Source: Chitinophagales bacterium (lineage in GTDB: Bacteria; Bacteroidota; Bacteroidia; Chitinophagales; LD1). From it: a stretch of DNA of 64,000 bases. The notes below the pieces were generated by a model. It did not search any database. It was not told where the DNA came from and saw only the letters and a program-made list of their open reading frames with translations. Of this stretch, positions 8,339-16,206 are shown in pieces. Numbering within the stretch: position 1 is the first letter of the stretch; every line of letters starts with the position of its first letter. The stretch lies in the NCBI GenBank assembly GCA_016786765.1, contig JAEUUZ010000003.1:372001-436000 (forward strand). The letters run 5' to 3'. The translations under genes were made by a program, and so were the position numbers.

Positions 8339-9577
8339 ATGGCACAGAAGAAAGAAACAGAACAATCATGCTCGTTTTGCGGACGCAAAAAGAAAGAGGT
8401 GCAGTTGTTAATTACAGGCATTGATGGTCAGATATGCGATCAGTGTGTTACACAGGCGCGTCATATTATCGAGGAAGAGCTGAACGACAAGTCGAAAAAC
8501 TTTAGTTATGTATTGCCTAAAGGGGTGAAGCCAAAAGATATTTCGTCTTTCTTAGATCAATATGTGATTGGACAAGAGGATGCAAAAAAATATTTATCAG
8601 TGGCGGTTTACAATCACTACAAGCGTTTGAACCAACGTATTGATGATGAAGTAGAGATTGAAAAATCAAATATTTTAGTTGTAGGACAAACAGGCACGGG
8701 AAAAACATTATTGGCGAAAACGATTGCTAAATATTTAAATGTTCCTTTCACCATTGTAGATGCTACTGTGTTTACAGAAGCAGGTTATGTGGGCGAAGAT
8801 GTAGAAAGTATTTTGTCTCGTTTGTTGCAATCATGCGATTATAATGTGGAGGCTGCCGAGCGCGGTATCATTTATGTGGATGAAGTGGACAAAATTGCCC
8901 GAAAAAGCGATAATCCATCCATAACTAGAGATGTATCAGGCGAAGGCGTTCAACAAGGCTTATTGAAGCTATTAGAGGGGACAGATGTACTCGTTCCACC
9001 TCAAGGCGGAAGAAAGCATCCGGATGCGAAAATGGTGAAGCTCAATACTTCGAATATTCTTTTCATTTGTGGAGGGGCGTTTGAAGGTATTGATAAGATG
9101 ATTGCTTCGCGCTTGAATCAAGCCAAAATTGGATTCAAGAAAGGGCGTGACAAAGAAAAAATGGATAACGAGAATTTCTTGCAGTATGTTTCTCCGGCTG
9201 ATATTCGTTCATTCGGATTAATTCCGGAATTGATTGGTCGTTTGCCGGTATTGGTCCATTTAGATCCATTAAGTAAAGAAGCATTAATGGCGATTTTAGA
9301 AGAGCCGAAAAATGCATTGTTGAAACAGTATCAGAAACTGTTCAAGTTGGAAGGCATTAAATTGGAATTCGCGAAAGACGCCAAAGAGTTCATGGTAGAA
9401 AAAGCTATGGAATATAATCTAGGCGCACGTGGTTTGCGTTCGATTTGCGAAGCGGTAATGACAGATGCGATGTACGAATTGCCTTCGGAGGAAGGGATAG
9501 AGCGCTTTACCATTAATCGCGACTATTGCGAAGAAAAATTCAATCGTTTAAACGTAAATAAATTGATGGTGGCTTAA
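8339..9577 (+). CDS. clpX: ATP-dependent Clp protease ATP-binding subunit ClpX
   Basis: AAA+ unfoldase of 412 residues that feeds substrates, including tmRNA-tagged proteins, into ClpP. The N-terminal zinc-binding domain has Cys11, Cys14, Cys33 and Cys36. Walker A is GQTGTGKT (116-123), the pore loop GYVGED (149-154) and Walker B IIYVDEVDK (177-185). The sensor and C-terminal small domain (GARGLRS, then ICEAVMTDAMYELPS) are present and length is normal. It lies 46 bases after clpP and ends 59 bases before the mature 5' end of tmRNA. Confidence 0.98.
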   Translation: MAQKKETEQSCSFCGRKKKEVQLLITGIDGQICDQCVTQARHIIEEELNDKSKNFSYVLPKGVKPKDISSFLDQYVIGQEDAKKYLSVAVYNHYKRLNQRIDDEVEIEKSNILVVGQTGTGKTLLAKTIAKYLNVPFTIVDATVFTEAGYVGEDVESILSRLLQSCDYNVEAAERGIIYVDEVDKIARKSDNPSITRDVSGEGVQQGLLKLLEGTDVLVPPQGGRKHPDAKMVKLNTSNILFICGGAFEGIDKMIASRLNQAKIGFKKGRDKEKMDNENFLQYVSPADIRSFGLIPELIGRLPVLVHLDPLSKEALMAILEEPKNALLKQYQKLFKLEGIKLEFAKDAKEFMVEKAMEYNLGARGLRSICEAVMTDAMYELPSEEGIERFTINRDYCEEKFNRLNVNKLMVA

Positions 9578-9636
9578 GGCAGATTAAACCTTTGCGTTTA
9601 TTCGAGTCTTAGGTTCAACAATGTTCTTTTTTTATT

Positions 9637-10002
9637 GGGGCTGACAGGTATTGACGGGAGGTCATGTCGGTAAACTTGCATGCAGTGGGTGTACATAGCA
9701 CTTTAATCCATGTACAACAAACAATAACTGGCGAAGAATCTTTCGCTATGGCTGCTTAATCTAAGAGATTAACCACCATTTTCTCCTCGCTTGAGGCTAC
9801 TTACACAGCGAGCTAGAAATCAAAAACTAGTGGCTTATTTGAAAGGTGCTTCATTCACATCTTTTGAAGACATTTTCGAATGCACGGAATAGTGTGGTGG
9901 GTTTCTTAACACGCATTATTCTCGGCAATTAATAAGGAACTAAGCATGTAGTAGGTCTATCTTCATCTTGTCCGGACGCGGGTTCAAATCCCGCCAGCTC
10001 CA
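9637..10002 (+). ncRNA. ssrA: Transfer-messenger RNA (tmRNA, SsrA)
   Basis: Both tRNA-like ends are visible: GGGGCTG at 9637 pairs with CAGCTCC at 9995-10001, followed by discriminator A at 10002, and the T arm reads GCGGGTTCAAATCCCGC. CCA is not encoded. The resume reading frame is GGC GAA GAA TCT TTC GCT ATG GCT GCT TAA at 9730-9759, giving the tag (A)GEESFAMAA, very like the Bacteroidota tags I know (for example GEESYAMAA). tmRNA with SmpB rescues stalled ribosomes and the tag directs the product to ClpXP. A possible promoter (ATTG, 21 bases, AACCTTTG at 9587-9594) lies just after the clpX stop. Length about 366 bases is normal. Confidence 0.96.
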
Positions 10003-10004
10003 CT

Positions 10005-10046
10005 TGGTATTGGAATACTACTGGAAACGTAGCGTTTTCAATACCA
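10005..10046 (+). terminator. Stem-loop just after tmRNA
   Basis: TGGTATTGGAA (10005-10015) pairs with TTTCAATACCA (10036-10046) with one G-U pair, and an inner CTAC/GTAG stem (10018-10021 and 10029-10032) extends it. It begins three bases after the tmRNA end. No run of T follows, so it may be a 3' processing or stabilising structure rather than a classical terminator. The rest of the gap to 10199 shows nothing recognisable. Confidence 0.5.
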
Positions 10047-10199
10047 TATAAACAAATTCTATACAATTTTAGTGCTCTAAAGGGCTACCTTCATTCTAAA
10101 CTAAGAATGTTACTAGTTTAATTCTTATGTATAAAGATTTTTAGTAAAAAACGACCTAAAGGGTAATTCATAGTTTATTCATCAGAGAATTAGTATAAA

Positions 10200-12272
10200 T
10201 CATCTTATACTGATAATTTTACGAGATACAGTTTCTTTAGTGCTCAATTCAGCAATATATAAAGAAGAATATAGTCCAATCGGCATAACGACTTCATTGC
10301 TTTCAAAATTTGAAATAGTATAAACCAATTTACCTGCTAAGTCATAAAGACGAAATTCAATTGGTTTTATGTAACTGCCCTTCCAAGCAACAATATTTCT
10401 TCCATTATACGAACTGTAATAAGAATAAAGTACAATGCCATTTTCTTTATTCTCAATATTCGTGGGATTAATTTGTACTATGTTTGACCTAGAGGAACTA
10501 TAATCCTCAACTTTAAATGAAGGTACACAACCTTGGGGATTCACAACTTCGATTTGGTAAATATATGGAGGGGTGGAAGGGAATATGTCTGTGTAACTTA
10601 GATTTGTAGATGCAACTTGAGCAATCTGTTGCATATTCTGAATTGAAGATCCACGGAATATGTTATAGAAACCTGAATTGAATCCAATGTAGCTATTCCA
10701 AATTAGGTTGACCTCATTGTTAACTCCAAGGTTTGATGTTAGGTGTATGGTTTGGTGAGGCGGACTATATTGAGACTCTCCACAAGCATCTACCGTGGTA
10801 ATAACATATCGATTACTTTGTTGTTGTGGGTTTGAAGAATAATCAATATAGGTGCTAAAATTACCGAAAGCTTGTTTGCGTATTAATTGGAATTGATTGG
10901 CAATAGTAGATTCTTTGTATATTTTGAACGAGTCAATTCCAAGGCCAGTTGATTTTTCCCAAATAATTACATTTTTTCCGCTTGATTGGTCAACACTTAC
11001 AATACAAATCTGTTGTTCGTTGTAGCTAGTGCTTGAGTTAACAGCCTGTACATCATTATATGTGCAGCCATCAGTGCCAAGAACTGTAACACTATAGTTC
11101 CCAGTCTGATTAACGCTAATCGTCTGGGTTTGAGCTCCAGTGCTCCACAAATAGTTCACAAAACCACTGCCAGCATTTAAAATGAGAGAGCCAGGTCCGC
11201 AATATGATGTAGGCCCATTTGGTATAATTTTGTAGTTAGAAATAGTTGGAGGTGTTACAGTTATAGTTTTGTTATCTGTAAAGGTACACCCATTTTGAGA
11301 AGTTACAGTTACACTATATGTTCCACTTTGACCAACACTAATTGAAGGTGTGTTTGCTCCATTTGACCATGAATAACTAGAATAGCTAGCGCCTGCATTT
11401 AAAGTCGCCAAATTGCCTTGACAAATAGTTGTGGAACCATTAACGCTAATTTGATAACTACCACTATTAATAACATTATATGTTATAGTTGCACTTGCTG
11501 TTGTATTGTTTGCGTCTGTTACTGTTACAGAATAAGAGGAATTCTGTGTAATTATTGCCGATGGATTGGAACAATTATTACAACTTAATGTGTTACCAGT
11601 AGAACTCCATGTATATGAGTAAGGAGAATATCCGTTTGAAATAGTGGCGTTTAAGTTAGCTAATGAACCGCTGCAAACACTTTTATTGTTTCCCAATGTT
11701 ACTGAGAAATTACCAGGAGTGCATGTTGGTGAGACTCCATAAGAAACAAAGTACAATGTTTGTCCAGTATCAACTAATGGAGTATTTTGACTTGAATTTA
11801 TTAATCTTATGTAATATCGTGAACCAGTAATGGCTTCCCAATCTACTTTTGGCAAAGTTACTATATCCGTTACGGCTGTAATTTTTATTCGCAGTTTGTA
11901 TTGACCAGGAAGGCCACAAGCATTACCTGTTATTTTGATACATCCGTTTTCATTCCCCACATATGTATTGTTAGATTTATTACTAGACCAACACACCCCT
12001 GGGGGTAAATTCTCGATGCTATCGAATCTTAATGATTGAATTGTGACCAGTTGACCAGCTATCCTCATAGTATCAAAACACTTAAATTGTATTGTTGTGC
12101 TTTGTGAAGTGCCATTAATAATTGGGGCAAGGTTTTGAGATGTAGGACTAAATCCAGTTTGTGATACAATAGCAGGAGTGCAAATGCTAGTTCCAGAGTT
12201 CATGCATGATTGCGCTTCCGTATTTGTAAATAATAGTAAAGTAAATATTGTTGTTAAGTTGAGGTATTTCAT
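10200..12272 (-). CDS. Secreted Ig/PKD-like repeat protein with T9SS type A sorting domain
   Basis: A 690-residue exported protein. Residues 1-21 are a signal peptide (MKYLNLTTIFTLLLFTNTEAQ). About 190-420 hold three Ig/PKD-like repeats, each with a Cys near its start (VCSGSLANLNA, ICQGNLATLNAG, YCGPGSLILNAG) and ending YSVTVT. About 430-600 look like fibronectin-III-type beta domains. The last 80 residues (IEFRLYDLAGKLVYTISN and KIISIR at the end) fit the Por secretion-system type A C-terminal domain, which is removed on export. No enzyme domain is recognisable, so a binding or structural surface role is inferred. It stands alone between tmRNA (convergent) and the serS unit. It looks more AT-rich than its neighbours by eye; this was not computed. 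Confidence 0.85.
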   Translation of the reverse strand: MKYLNLTTIFTLLLFTNTEAQSCMNSGTSICTPAIVSQTGFSPTSQNLAPIINGTSQSTTIQFKCFDTMRIAGQLVTIQSLRFDSIENLPPGVCWSSNKSNNTYVGNENGCIKITGNACGLPGQYKLRIKITAVTDIVTLPKVDWEAITGSRYYIRLINSSQNTPLVDTGQTLYFVSYGVSPTCTPGNFSVTLGNNKSVCSGSLANLNATISNGYSPYSYTWSSTGNTLSCNNCSNPSAIITQNSSYSVTVTDANNTTASATITYNVINSGSYQISVNGSTTICQGNLATLNAGASYSSYSWSNGANTPSISVGQSGTYSVTVTSQNGCTFTDNKTITVTPPTISNYKIIPNGPTSYCGPGSLILNAGSGFVNYLWSTGAQTQTISVNQTGNYSVTVLGTDGCTYNDVQAVNSSTSYNEQQICIVSVDQSSGKNVIIWEKSTGLGIDSFKIYKESTIANQFQLIRKQAFGNFSTYIDYSSNPQQQSNRYVITTVDACGESQYSPPHQTIHLTSNLGVNNEVNLIWNSYIGFNSGFYNIFRGSSIQNMQQIAQVASTNLSYTDIFPSTPPYIYQIEVVNPQGCVPSFKVEDYSSSRSNIVQINPTNIENKENGIVLYSYYSSYNGRNIVAWKGSYIKPIEFRLYDLAGKLVYTISNFESNEVVMPIGLYSSLYIAELSTKETVSRKIISIR

Positions 12273-12362
12273 AGGTAAAAGATTTTAAATTTGAAATTGA
12301 TGGATAAAATTACATTATTAATACAATTTAAATGAGATATGTTATAGTTATGATTTAAAACA

Positions 12363-12494
12363 CTAATCTTTCAATTTTAAATAAGCTGCGGCAAATATGC
12401 CCAGCCAAATCAAACCTTTAATAAGAAAAAACAAGAATCCTGCGATTCCTATTTTTTTTAGGTATGGTGAACTATTTTTTAGAAAGTTGAACAT
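12363..12494 (-). CDS. Small single-pass membrane protein, 43 residues, downstream of serS
   Basis: An uninterrupted frame starts with ATG at 12494 and stops with TAG at 12363. It encodes a protein beginning MFNFLKNSSPYLKK, followed by a hydrophobic stretch (IGIAGFLFFLIKGLIWLG, residues 15-32) and ending AAAYLKLKD. The basic N-terminus before one membrane helix, and a start only 6 bases after the serS stop on the same strand, argue for a real gene in the serS transcript. The KKIGIAGFLFFLIKGLIWL-type core resembles short unnamed membrane proteins I associate with Bacteroidota. Function unknown. Confidence 0.7.
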   Translation of the reverse strand: MFNFLKNSSPYLKKIGIAGFLFFLIKGLIWLGIFAAAYLKLKD

Positions 12495-12500
12495 CGTTTA

Positions 12501-13772
12501 TCAAACAATTTTATCGAAGCCAGTGTATGGTTGTAAAGCTTTTGGAATGTAGATGCCATCTTCTTTCTGATGGTTTTCTAAAATACCTGCAACAATTCTT
12601 GGTAACGCCATAGCGCTACCGTTCAACGAGTGACAAAGAATTGTTTTCTTGTTTTCATCGCGGTAACGCACTTTCATTCGGTTGGTTTGAAAGGTCTCAA
12701 AGTTAGATACAGAGCTCACTTCCAGCCATCGTTGTTGTGCGGTACTATACACTTCGAAGTCATACGTAAGCGCTGAAGAGAAACTCATATCGCCTCCACA
12801 TAATCGCAAAATTCGGTAAGGTAACTCTAATGCCTGCAACAACGATTCTACGTGAGCACACATGCTATCTAGTGTTTCATACGATTTAGCAGGATGTTGA
12901 ATTTGAACAATTTCTACTTTATCGAATTGGTGAACACGATTCAAACCACGAACATCTTTTCCGTAAGAACCCGCTTCTCGTCTGAAACATGGCGAGTAGG
13001 CTGCCATTTTAATCGGCAATTGTTTTTCGTCAAAAATTTCATCTCGAACAATATTGGTAACAGGCACTTCAGCCGTTGGAATCAAATACAAGTTATCGGC
13101 AGTGGCGAAATACATTTGACCTTCTTTGTCGGGCAATTGACCCGTACCAAAAGCAGAAGCTTCATTCACCATGTGTGGCGGTATTACTTCGTTGTAGCCT
13201 GCTTCAATGGCTCTGTCCAAGAAAAAAGAGATCAAAGCGCGTTGTAGTTTTGCGCCTTTTCCTTTGTACACAGGAAACCCTGCACCTGTGATTTTTACCC
13301 CTAATTCCAAATCGAACAAATCATATTTTTTGCCTAACTCCCAGTGTGGCTGGGCATTGGCGTGTAATACAGGGATGTCGCCCACTTGTTTGGCTACGAT
13401 ATTATCTTCAGCCGTTTTTCCTTTCGGGACCAAATCGCATGGAAGGTTCGGTAGTTGTACTAACAAATCGAATTGTCTTTTTTCCGTTTCGGCAAAGCGG
13501 TTCGTTAATGTAGCGCTTTCCTCTTTCAAGCTTACTGTTTCTGCCTTTTTAGCTTCTGCTTCGTCTTTTTTTCCTTCTTTGAACAACACGCCAATTTCTT
13601 TCGCAATGGCATTTTCGCGGCTTCTGATATCGTCTAATTGTTTCTGTATGGCTCTTCGCTCTTCATCGGCTTGTAGAATTTCGTCCACCAAATGAAGATC
13701 TGAAAAGTTCTTCACGCTCAGTTTCTGTTTCACTAATTCGGGCGACTGGCGGATGATTTGAATTTCTATCAT
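12501..13772 (-). CDS. serS: Seryl-tRNA synthetase
   Basis: Class II aminoacyl-tRNA synthetase of 423 residues, charging tRNA-Ser in the cytoplasm. Residues about 1-110 form the long antiparallel coiled coil that reaches the tRNA variable arm (rich in Glu, Lys, Ala). The catalytic core shows motif 2 (PCFRREAGSYGKDVRGLNRV) and motif 3 (ALPRIVAGILENHQ), plus the TAEVP serine-site loop. Length is normal. The ATG at 13772 lies about 20 bases downstream of a -7 box (TAGCTTCG). The gene is followed at once by the 43-residue membrane protein gene. Confidence 0.98.
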   Translation of the reverse strand: MIEIQIIRQSPELVKQKLSVKNFSDLHLVDEILQADEERRAIQKQLDDIRSRENAIAKEIGVLFKEGKKDEAEAKKAETVSLKEESATLTNRFAETEKRQFDLLVQLPNLPCDLVPKGKTAEDNIVAKQVGDIPVLHANAQPHWELGKKYDLFDLELGVKITGAGFPVYKGKGAKLQRALISFFLDRAIEAGYNEVIPPHMVNEASAFGTGQLPDKEGQMYFATADNLYLIPTAEVPVTNIVRDEIFDEKQLPIKMAAYSPCFRREAGSYGKDVRGLNRVHQFDKVEIVQIQHPAKSYETLDSMCAHVESLLQALELPYRILRLCGGDMSFSSALTYDFEVYSTAQQRWLEVSSVSNFETFQTNRMKVRYRDENKKTILCHSLNGSAMALPRIVAGILENHQKEDGIYIPKALQPYTGFDKIV

Positions 13773-13792
13773 GACTTTTTAAAATTATGCTG

Positions 13793-13800
13793 CGAAGCTA
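13793..13800 (-). promoter_or_regulatory. serS -7 promoter element
   Basis: TAGCTTCG on the minus strand, a TAnnTTYG-type -7 box, 20 bases before the serS ATG. No convincing TTTG was found at the expected upstream distance. Confidence 0.4.
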
Positions 13801-13894
13801 AAAAAAAGGGAATATTCTTTGTGTATTCGCGGCTTTTCGTGTTCGATTTGTGCGTTAATATTTGGCAAATTGGCATTTTGGTCAATTAATTCCT

Positions 13895-13902
13895 TATTTT
13901 TG
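13895..13902 (+). promoter_or_regulatory. tatA -7 promoter element
   Basis: TATTTTTG, an exact TAnnTTTG match, 17 bases before the tatA ATG. The -33 region holds TTGG with a 21-base spacer (13870-13873), a weak match. Confidence 0.45.
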
Positions 13903-13919
13903 ACACAAAATTAAGAATC

Positions 13920-14132
13920 ATGTTTGGCTTAGGAACACCTGAAATTATAATTATACTCGTAGTTGTTTTGTTGTTGTTTGGTGGTAAAAAAATACCTGAA
14001 TTGATGCGTGGCCTTGGACAAGGTGTGCGTGAATTCAATGCTGCTAAAGCTAACATCAAAACAGAAATTGAAGAGGGCATGCGCGAAAAGCCTACTCCTG
14101 TTCAACCAACAGAGAAAAAGGAAGAAGCATAA
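13920..14132 (+). CDS. tatA: Sec-independent protein translocase TatA/E family
   Basis: A 70-residue inner-membrane protein of the twin-arginine export pathway, which moves folded proteins across the cytoplasmic membrane. It starts [35 protein letters not shown]: a short N-terminus, one membrane helix (about residues 7-22), the FGGKK(I/L)PEL hinge and an amphipathic helix, followed by a charged tail ending in KEEA. This is the standard TatA plan. tatC is not in the window. An exact -7 box precedes it and a hairpin terminator follows at 14154, so it appears to be transcribed alone. Confidence 0.95.
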
Positions 14133-14153
14133 TTTTTGCTTTTTTAAATCACT

Positions 14154-14181
14154 TGCCGCGAGTTGTCTCTCGGCATTTTTT
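14154..14181 (+). terminator. Intrinsic terminator after tatA
   Basis: TGCCGCGAG (14154-14162) pairs with CTCTCGGCA (14167-14175) with one mismatch and a TTGT loop, followed by TTTTTTATT. It separates tatA from gatA. Confidence 0.8.
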
Positions 14182-14214
14182 ATTGTTTCATTTTAATTTA
14201 TCTCCCTTTATTTC

Positions 14215-15633
14215 GTGAGTTCATACAACACTATACGCTCCCTTCAAACGGCTTTAACGGCAGGCGAAACCACGGTTTCAGCCATTGTTGATTTGTACAT
14301 TAAAACCATTGATGCCAAAAAGCAGCTCAATGCATTTTTGGAAGTATTTACTGAAGAAGCACAACAGCGCGCTTTGCAGTTAGATGCGAAAAGAAAATCA
14401 GGGCAGCCGTTAGGGAAGTTGCACGGTTTGGTGATTGGCATTAAGGATAACATTTGTTATGCCGGACATAAAGTTACCGGAGGTTCTAAGATTTTAGAAA
14501 ACTTCACTTCGATTTATAATGCTACAGTGGTAGAGCGATTATTGGCTGAAGATGCCATTATTATTGGGCGTTTGAACTGCGATGAATTTGCGATGGGTTC
14601 GAGTAATGAGAATTCGGCCTACGGAAATGTGAAAAATGCATTGGATGAGACCCTTGTGCCGGGCGGTTCTTCAGGTGGTTCGGCAGTGGCAGTGCAAGCC
14701 GATTTATGTCATGCTACTTTGGGCAGCGATACAGGAGGTTCAATTCGTCAGCCCGCATCGTTTTGTGGTGTGGTAGGCGTGAAACCCACGTATGGCTTGG
14801 TTTCTCGCTATGGTTTGTTGGCTTATGCTTCATCGTTCGATCAAATAGGTCCATTGACAAAGTCAGTTGAAGATTCTGCTTTGATTTTAGAAGTAATTGC
14901 CGGTGCAGATGAATTTGATAGTACAGCTTCCCAGAAACCAATCCCTGCTTATACTTCGCAAACTTTTCCGGGCAAAGCAAAAATTGCTGTTTTAAAAAAC
15001 ACAGTGGATCATCCCGGAATTCATGCCGATGTGAAACAAGCAACGGAAACCTTTATTGCCGATTTGAAAACCAAAGGACATAGTGTTGAAGAGGTAGCTT
15101 TTGATTTAATGGATTATCTGATTCCGACTTATTATGTTTTGACTACGGCTGAAGCTTCGTCAAACTTAGCGCGCTACGATGGTGTGCATTTTGGGTTCCG
15201 TTCACCGAATGCGGTGGACATGGAAACGGTGTACAAAAAATCGCGTAGTGAAGGCTTTGGAAAGGAAGTGAAGAACAGAATTATGTTGGGCACCTTTGTG
15301 TTGAGTTCGGGATATTATGATGCGTACTATTCAAGAGCACAAAAAGTGCGTAGAATTTTGAAAGAGCAGATCAGAGCTATTTTCAAGGACTACGATTTTA
15401 TTTTGATGCCCACGGCACCATCAGTCGCTTTCAAAATTGGCGAAAAAACAGACGACCCTATAGCGATGTACTTAGCCGATATCTACACGGTTTTAGCCAA
15501 TTTGGTGGCTATTCCGGGCTTGTCGATTCCCGTAGCAAATGATGCACAAGGCTTGCCGATTGGCATTCAGCTGATGTCGGATAAATTCGAAGATGGTAAG
15601 TTGATGGCTTTTGCCAAAGAGATAGGATATTAG
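14215..15633 (+). CDS. gatA: Aspartyl/glutamyl-tRNA amidotransferase subunit A
   Basis: The 472-residue amidase subunit of GatCAB, which releases ammonia from glutamine to convert Glu-tRNA(Gln) or Asp-tRNA(Asn) to the amide form. The Ser-cisSer-Lys triad is visible as Lys77 (GIKDNI), Ser152 (PGGSSGGSA) and Ser176 (GSDTGGSIRQP), each two residues below the Staphylococcus aureus numbering. Translation starts at GTG 14215; the N-terminal helix then has the usual length. The C-terminal part (IPGLSIPVANDAQGLPIGIQ) is complete. gatB and gatC are not in the window, so the complex is encoded at separate loci. Confidence 0.95.
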   Translation: MSSYNTIRSLQTALTAGETTVSAIVDLYIKTIDAKKQLNAFLEVFTEEAQQRALQLDAKRKSGQPLGKLHGLVIGIKDNICYAGHKVTGGSKILENFTSIYNATVVERLLAEDAIIIGRLNCDEFAMGSSNENSAYGNVKNALDETLVPGGSSGGSAVAVQADLCHATLGSDTGGSIRQPASFCGVVGVKPTYGLVSRYGLLAYASSFDQIGPLTKSVEDSALILEVIAGADEFDSTASQKPIPAYTSQTFPGKAKIAVLKNTVDHPGIHADVKQATETFIADLKTKGHSVEEVAFDLMDYLIPTYYVLTTAEASSNLARYDGVHFGFRSPNAVDMETVYKKSRSEGFGKEVKNRIMLGTFVLSSGYYDAYYSRAQKVRRILKEQIRAIFKDYDFILMPTAPSVAFKIGEKTDDPIAMYLADIYTVLANLVAIPGLSIPVANDAQGLPIGIQLMSDKFEDGKLMAFAKEIGY

Positions 15634-15700
15634 GGTTGGGAGTTGGGAAAAGCAAGTTGAGGGTTGTTAGTTGGGGGTTGAGAGAAGTGTAGTTGTCCTA
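15634..15700. repeat. G/T-rich short direct repeats after gatA
   Basis: Directly after the gatA stop the + strand carries repeated variants of GTTGGGAGTTGGG and AGTTGGGGGTTGAG, almost free of C. It is low-complexity DNA with no reading frame. Only a short AT-rich leader follows before the gene at 15748. Confidence 0.55.
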
Positions 15701-15747
15701 ATTAAAAAAGTGAATAGTAAATCTTAAATCAAAAAATCATAAATGTT

Positions 15748-16206
15748 ATGGCTTTACCTAACGTGTTTACCAAAGAAGTAGCCGATAGTTTAATTGCTCG
15801 TATTAATACTCTAACACCTGAAAGTAAAGCGCAATGGGGGAAAATGAGTGTTGCACAAATGTTGGCACACTGCAATGTAACTTACGAATATGTGTATGAA
15901 GACAAATACGCAAAGCCGAATGCCTTTATGCGATTTATCTTGAAAACTTTGGTAAAGAAAACGGTGGTGAGCGAAGATCCATACAAGCACAACGGAAATA
16001 CAGGTCCCGATTTCATTATCAAAAACGAACCTGAATTTACTGCGCAAAAAAATCGTTTGATTGGTTTCATCGCCAAAACGCAAGAACTTGGGGCTTCGCA
16101 TTTCGAAGGGAAAGAGTCGCATTCATTTGGTATGCTAACGGCTACCGAATGGAACAACATGTTTTACAAACATTTGAACCATCACTTGGGGCAATTTGGG
16201 GTGTAA
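15748..16206 (+). CDS. DUF1569 (DinB-like fold) protein
   Basis: A 152-residue soluble protein with no signal peptide. The N-terminal half has the family pattern of a helix followed by KAQWGKMSVAQMLAHCNVTYEY, and the end reads NNMFYKHLNHHLGQFGV. Conserved His residues (AHC, and the HLNHHL cluster) are in the positions that form a metal-binding-like site in DinB-fold proteins. DUF1569 proteins have no established function; a thiol- or metal-dependent activity is only a guess. The gene stands alone between gatA and ruvA, with over 100 bases on either side. Confidence 0.75.
   Translation: MALPNVFTKEVADSLIARINTLTPESKAQWGKMSVAQMLAHCNVTYEYVYEDKYAKPNAFMRFILKTLVKKTVVSEDPYKHNGNTGPDFIIKNEPEFTAQKNRLIGFIAKTQELGASHFEGKESHSFGMLTATEWNNMFYKHLNHHLGQFGV

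Follow-up and report, generated by a model that had tools for sequence, protein, structure and literature searches.

The 43-residue open reading frame (ORF) directly behind serS is a genuine gene, and its product is a member of a very small inner-membrane protein family, in which a basic N-terminal stretch leads into a transmembrane helix. Strong purifying selection acts on the family. Its genes recurrently adjoin three unrelated families of heme-degrading enzymes in Bacteroidota and heme oxygenase (HO) in Planctomycetota, and HO is likewise the neighbour at one locus of an Acidobacteriota assembly. In some lineages these enzymes travel with the small protein, and the small protein does not need them. 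Judging from sequence and gene order, we tentatively suggest that the family may have an accessory role at the membrane in breaking down or trafficking heme, a reading whose chance we put slightly below even and whose mechanism we infer. The place of this particular copy behind serS looks incidental.

A conserved gene for a single-helix membrane protein

Within the window (the whole stretch of 64,000 nucleotides that was analysed), the original prediction had placed an unlisted gene at 12363-12494, with its ATG 6 bases past the serS stop. Direct reading confirmed both statements and added the strand, minus, which the prediction had not given (Table 1). The frame translates as MFNFLKNSSPYLKKIGIAGFLFFLIKGLIWLGIFAAAYLKLKD. 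The frame is closed by a stop two codons 5' of the ATG (the stop-to-stop frame begins TMFNF...), which makes this ATG its sole common start. No Shine-Dalgarno sequence was seen by eye in the spacer between the serS TGA and the ATG, and no terminator-like site was found on the minus strand between 12240 and 14000 (the junction of serS and the small gene and just beyond). The Bacteroidota-type promoter motif, TTTG/TANNTTTG, had three matches in the window, none near the small gene and not above chance. The G+C content is 30.3% in the small gene, 41.9% in serS and 39.2% in the window. A 690-aa ORF (12272..10200, minus; G+C 35.5%) starts 90 nt downstream of the small gene; by eye it has a secreted, PKD-type look, and a Pfam scan gave no match at E≤1e-3.

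Table 1. Features at the small-gene locus of the window
Feature	Coordinates	Strand	Basis
43-aa single-helix membrane protein gene	12494..12363	minus	frame, homologues, purifying selection, predicted helix
6-nt spacer TAAACG, serS stop to ATG	12495..12500	minus	direct reading
serS, seryl-tRNA synthetase, upstream neighbour	13772..12501	minus	PF02403, PF00587
Codons 16-30 (G16 to W30), with invariant residues G16, F22, F23, K26, G27, W30	12405..12449	minus	88-row alignment

ORF size alone is no evidence of a gene here, because positions 9000-16000 are overlapped by 57 ORFs that reach 30 aa or more. Evidence comes instead from relatives and from the pattern of substitution. The gene is single-copy in its own genome (G000; 3.62 Mb in 66 contigs), and matches to the small protein were found in 40 of 60 genomes at E≤10, with 33 of these at E<1e-3 (own genome counted). 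In the class sample of 295 genomes, an 88-member profile gave a match at E≤1e-3 in 86 (own genome counted), and an internal stop interrupts the aligned stretch in 12 of the 91 class-sample profile matches. The same profile matched 6 of 149 genomes in the phylum of G516 (the Acidobacteria assembly that carries locus L054) and 5 of 149 in the phylum of G517 (the Phycisphaerae assembly of locus L079), the centre genome being counted in each case. An earlier, narrower profile matched 16 of 198 genomes across the whole phylum, three of them marginally (E 0.003-0.009).

The substitution pattern is that of a protein-coding gene. G16, F23, K26 and G27 are constant in 139 distinct coding sequences and their codons vary (all four GGN forms, TTT/TTC, AAA/AAG); F22 is kept in 136 of the 139 and W30 in 137. 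Neither G16 nor W30 belongs to the peptide pattern used to collect loci, so the choice of loci does not account for their conservation. Codon positions 1, 2 and 3 had mean identities of 0.66, 0.85 and 0.39, and pN/pS was <0.5 in 62 of 62 equal-length pairs (70-95% nucleotide identity; pairs not independent), with a median of 0.15. A chance ORF, for which one could cite the short length and the many ORFs of similar size nearby, is extremely improbable in view of these values and of homologues in three phyla. The original prediction had held that an unconserved frame or start, or a ratio near 1, would speak against a real gene; frame and core proved conserved, with pN/pS well below 1. As to sampling, the peptide-pattern scan for loci kept 80 of 414 relatives, the motif pattern of the locus-orientation survey missed 10 of 172 loci, and reference set A2 comprised 71 of 74 references.

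Members of the family are ~35-60 residues long with a single helix, and share the core W/Y-L-K-[RK]-x-G-x-x-G-F-L-F-F-x-x-K-G-L-x-W within that one predicted helix; the N-terminal stretch and the C-terminus differ among members, both in length and in sequence. All six residues that are invariant over the 88 alignment rows are found in the window protein. AlphaFold2 predicted one helix for residues 9-42 (mean pLDDT 84.8), 19-residue hydropathy was >2.0 for segments beginning at residues 15-21 (maximum 2.21), and residues 1-15 carry a net charge of +3, which together bear out the basic N-terminus and one membrane helix predicted earlier. Given these three net positive charges, the N-terminus would be placed in the cytosol by the positive-inside rule. 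The conserved face of the helix (G16, G19/F20, F23, K26/G27, W30, F34) is at about 140 degrees when 100 degrees are allowed per residue, and the helix presents an invariant intramembrane lysine, then a glycine and, three residues further, a tryptophan.

Neighbours of the small gene

The close spacing had been taken to suggest translational coupling to serS, and this did not survive comparison. The core motif was found behind serS in 0 of 29 other relatives with the serS locus read (for L178, L198 and L199 the downstream sequence was just 508, 171 and 370 nt), and among the first 30 small-gene loci the window's own was the only one with a serS match. Across the family, the upstream ORF is on the same strand for 94 of 133 small genes (p=2e-6), the downstream orientation is even (67/131), and the gap to the same-strand upstream gene has a median of 27.5 nt, with <100 nt in 74 of the 94. 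Riding closely behind some upstream gene is a habit of the family, and the identity of that gene varies. A functional coupling in which the small protein serves translation or tRNA charging would fit the 6-nt spacing in the window genome; it is very improbable given the 29 other loci and the short spacing often seen behind other genes, and we rejected it. The serS position would be a lineage-specific ride on another gene's transcript, with co-transcription as our proposal.

The recurrent neighbours are heme-degrading enzymes. Using local profiles for ABM, HO and HemS on the direct neighbours of 187 distinct family sequences (from mixed sources and including related genomes), we found 30 with such an enzyme (17 ABM, 9 HO, 4 HemS) and 157 with none adjacent. 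One further enzyme-adjacent locus, L272, fell outside the script's motif pattern and is additional to the 30. Several enzyme-linked loci are closely related to one another, and the ABM-linked L209 and L213 were collected via an ABM search, both genomes being small-gene matches already. The three enzyme families (IsdG/HmoB-like ABM, HemS/ChuX and HO-1-type) are unrelated. The original prediction gave the function as unknown, and this recurrent class of neighbour sharpens that statement.

A Pfam scan of 89 of the 94 same-strand upstream neighbours (the near-duplicates L030, L065, L088, L134 and L171 were left out) returned ABM as the commonest family (10), followed by carboxyltransferase (9), HemS/ChuX (4), di-heme peroxidase (3), and TonB receptor and heme oxygenase (2 each). 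When compared with solved structures, one ABM protein matched HmoB (7.5e-14) and IsdI (1.7e-7), its best PDB match being 1iuj, an uncharacterised protein; two ABM proteins matched the NCBIfam HmuQ (heme-degrading) and IsdI models below their cut-offs. The ABM subfamily occurs in 11 of 60 genomes and stands immediately upstream of the small gene in 10 of these (the exception is G051). With the starts chosen by the script, there is a 4-nt overlap between ABM or HemS and the small gene in L003, L007, L027, L031 and L039.

A match to PF01126 confirmed HO at seven loci (L023, L066, L079, L099, L169, L170, L172). At the planctomycetal loci read (L079, L099, L169, L170, L171, L172) HO directly follows the small gene, on the same strand, in 6 of 6, where L169-L172 are assigned by the phylum of G517, L170 and L171 are nearly identical, and the L171 HO is called by local profile alone. 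The gap between small gene and HO is 32 nt in L079, 22 nt in L099 and longer in L169-L172. Hairpin-plus-T stretches (by eye) intervene in L170-L172, so that the two genes need not be co-transcribed there. The fullest cluster is at L066 (Sphingobacterium sp. SGG-5), where the small gene ends a run of TonB receptor, HmuY, an unknown gene, HmuY and HO, with genes for a FecCD permease, a binding protein and an ATPase nearby on the other strand.

Of eight genomes with two copies, seven have exactly one that is enzyme-linked, a pattern to which, with those of the planctomycetal loci and the ABM subfamily, we give the greatest weight. The linked copy lies behind an ABM gene in G272, G335, G418, G466 and G014, behind HO in G399 and ahead of HO in G519. 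Neither copy adjoins an enzyme in G021, where one is behind a TonB-receptor-like gene (by eye), as in the ABM clusters.

The association also appears in the class sample, which was drawn regardless of neighbours: 8 of 87 copies are enzyme-adjacent (6 ABM, 1 HemS, 1 HO) vs. a chance expectation of ~0.01, by a crude Poisson estimate good to an order of magnitude. This estimate assumes 3300 genes per genome, independent genomes and 93 small genes (87 examined), and takes its ABM frequency from 60 genomes. Neighbours were read for 87 of the 91 class matches, leaving out G337, G255, G505 and G442. By genome, the small gene is present in 9 of the 26 that have HO (p=0.51) and in 13 of the 29 that have HemS (p=0.056), compared with 86 of 295 overall, and such weak co-occurrence ruled out the heme enzymes as obligate genome partners. 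Among 50 solitary copies, no heme-degrading family was found in the 25 commonest of 115 neighbour Pfam families. The enzyme-linked set and the solitary set both have G16, F23, K26 and G27 without exception, and W30 is present in 30/30 and 155/157, respectively.

Clustering of the 80 loci kept from the 414 relatives yielded no general partner of the small gene. The largest clusters, of 9 loci each, were a carboxyltransferase and a protease judged HtrA-like by eye; in nine of the loci L031-L110 (e.g., L083) the carboxyltransferase is directly upstream of the small gene and the protease precedes it. On the downstream side, no family occurred in more than 3 of 55 neighbours, among the 25 listed of 72 families (the scan covered 55 of the 61 on the same strand within 250 nt, without L005, L007, L026, L027, L030 and L061). 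In several of L003, L005, L007, L011, L032 and L287, the small gene, or its pair with ABM, comes after genes that by eye resemble those for TonB receptors, HTTM proteins and imelysins, which suggests an iron or heme uptake cluster. In the Acidobacteriota sample, the small gene of L054, L164, L165 and L166 is flanked on one side by a D-Ala-D-Ala-dipeptidase-like gene in divergent orientation and on the other by a similar gene in convergent orientation (both by eye).

Further neighbours bear on a general role. Catalase is directly upstream in L286 (1444-2961) and L249 (3194-4768), from genomes of different families; like the L249 copy, the second copy of G014 is behind catalase. Di-heme peroxidase is upstream in L002, L010 and L013. 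In L135 (1177-1623), a DUF3817 membrane domain (PF12823, 6.3e-25) is fused in frame to the small protein. The other loci examined gave no DUF3817 match, and DUF3817 was set aside as a general partner on account of this single fusion.

Proposed role and alternatives

We consider a helix that holds heme or bilin the most likely explanation, followed by a general membrane protein and then by a docking site for the enzymes. As we picture the first of these, a small helix, perhaps oligomeric, would hold or pass heme or bilin in the inner membrane beside the degrading enzyme, with the lysine directed to a propionate, the phenylalanines and tryptophan to the ring, and the N-terminus in the cytosol. 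The three unrelated partner folds have only substrate and products in common, so the conserved part would more likely contact heme, the tetrapyrroles formed from it or some shared partner in the membrane than the surface of any one enzyme. For the solitary copy behind serS, the task would be the same in a more general form. In its widest form, this reading would make the one-helix family a membrane component common to different routes of bacterial heme breakdown, which binds heme or bilin via the intramembrane Lys-Gly-aromatic face and serves HO-1, IsdG/HmoB-like and HemS/ChuX enzymes in Bacteroidota, Planctomycetota and the one Acidobacteriota case, with the solitary paralogue used for general heme traffic. 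We regard that full form as unlikely.

To the best of our knowledge, the inner-membrane delivery of heme to soluble ring-opening enzymes, and the exit of bilin, are poorly understood in bacteria. The small protein, conserved and encoded next to heme-degrading enzymes of unrelated families, offers a concrete and testable candidate for this step.

As regards the window gene, a heme role is extrapolated from its relatives and should be taken as less certain, since its genome lacks all three enzyme types that were tested: local profiles at E≤1e-5 found HO, HemS and the ABM subfamily absent from G000, which has one generic ABM protein. The gene is solitary, with serS and the PKD-like ORF as its direct neighbours.

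It is possible, if somewhat unlikely, that the family is a general small membrane protein unrelated to heme (a transporter or respiratory subunit or regulator) that heme-enzyme operons have borrowed on account of iron or oxidative-stress regulation. In its favour, most copies are solitary with mixed neighbours, and the upstream catalases and di-heme peroxidases, the single DUF3817 fusion and the weak co-occurrence of HO and HemS with the small gene by genome point the same way. Taken alone, this explanation leaves three observations unaccounted for, namely the three unrelated heme-degrading neighbour families, the HO at every planctomycetal locus read, and the one enzyme-tied copy in nearly all two-copy genomes.

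Alternatively, the small protein could dock a soluble heme-degrading enzyme at the inner membrane near the heme importer, as if the membrane anchor at the C-terminus of eukaryotic HO-1 had become a separate protein. The adjacency of the enzyme genes to the small gene and the short gaps or overlaps between them are consistent with docking, as are the basic N-terminal side of the small protein and the planctomycetal HOs, which on examination by eye have no long hydrophobic C-terminal helix. Nonetheless, a docking surface would have to suit three unrelated enzyme folds, yet the presumed cytosolic N-terminus is variable and the invariant part is intramembrane, and we hold docking to be quite unlikely.

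Nearest named families and systems

The window gene lacks a name in the curated family libraries that we searched, and the family is unnamed there. Pfam and NCBIfam gave sub-cut-off matches only; the window protein had no match in PHROGs, and the family profile matched no PDB chain at E≤10. The family is probably unannotated or recorded as 'hypothetical' in many genomes, because the Pfam and NCBIfam copies searched have no model for it and yet about three in ten sampled genomes of the class have it. Among the titles and abstract openings listed from open-licence literature none described such a protein, and four family peptide strings occurred in none of its texts.

Among the weak matches, CrgA came up most often, with Pfam PF06781 in 5 of 88 members (best 1.4e-3) and NCBIfam CrgA models in up to 11 of 88 (best 3.9e-4). 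However, the window protein is absent among the listed CrgA matches of both libraries, and no CrgA match in the family exceeded the curated cut-off. CrgA, a cell-division protein, has two membrane helices, compared with one predicted by AlphaFold2 for the window protein; F-F-x-x-K is to our knowledge not part of CrgA. By match and helix count, the window protein falls outside CrgA. The heme-exporter subunits of the CcmD type are tiny single-helix proteins as well, and CcmD_alt (TIGR04391) matched the window protein weakly (E 0.5) and 4 of 88 members at best 0.12. The window protein scored 10.4 bits vs. a cut-off of 24, and its gene has serS and the PKD-like ORF beside it rather than ccm genes.

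Other systems are close by description. HemP/HmuP are very small proteins encoded among proteobacterial heme-acquisition genes, and HemP is cytoplasmic with no membrane helix. As for the Isd surface system, we know of none in Bacteroidota. IsdD, from the isd operon of Staphylococcus aureus, is reported to form a complex with IsdF (PMC12670364), and we list it among the closest known systems by description. HemP has been named as a regulator (PMC11002078); by description, the small family differs in its predicted membrane helix. The HmuS de-chelatase of Bacteroidota handles heme at the membrane to free iron (PMC12583661). This resembles our proposal in involving membrane heme handling in the same phylum as the window gene's host, and HmuS is set apart, by description, as an enzyme rather than a one-helix protein. 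A global catalogue of small proteins states that the great bulk of its families spanning several genera lack any detected Pfam domain (PMC11364881), and members of the present family may well be entered in such catalogues without a function.

With regard to mobile elements, a plasmid and phage search with one member, L063, gave no match. Seven IMG/VR contigs contain relatives of the small protein, and HO, ABM and HemS profiles gave no match on the stretches examined from these seven. Relatives on viral-classed contigs include L278, which comes from a 436-kb contig, and L280, L282 and L283, which are IMG/VR contigs. At the latter three no ATG is found ahead of the small-protein core, and the small frame opens inside the 3' end of an iron-dependent-oxygenase-like ORF (by eye).
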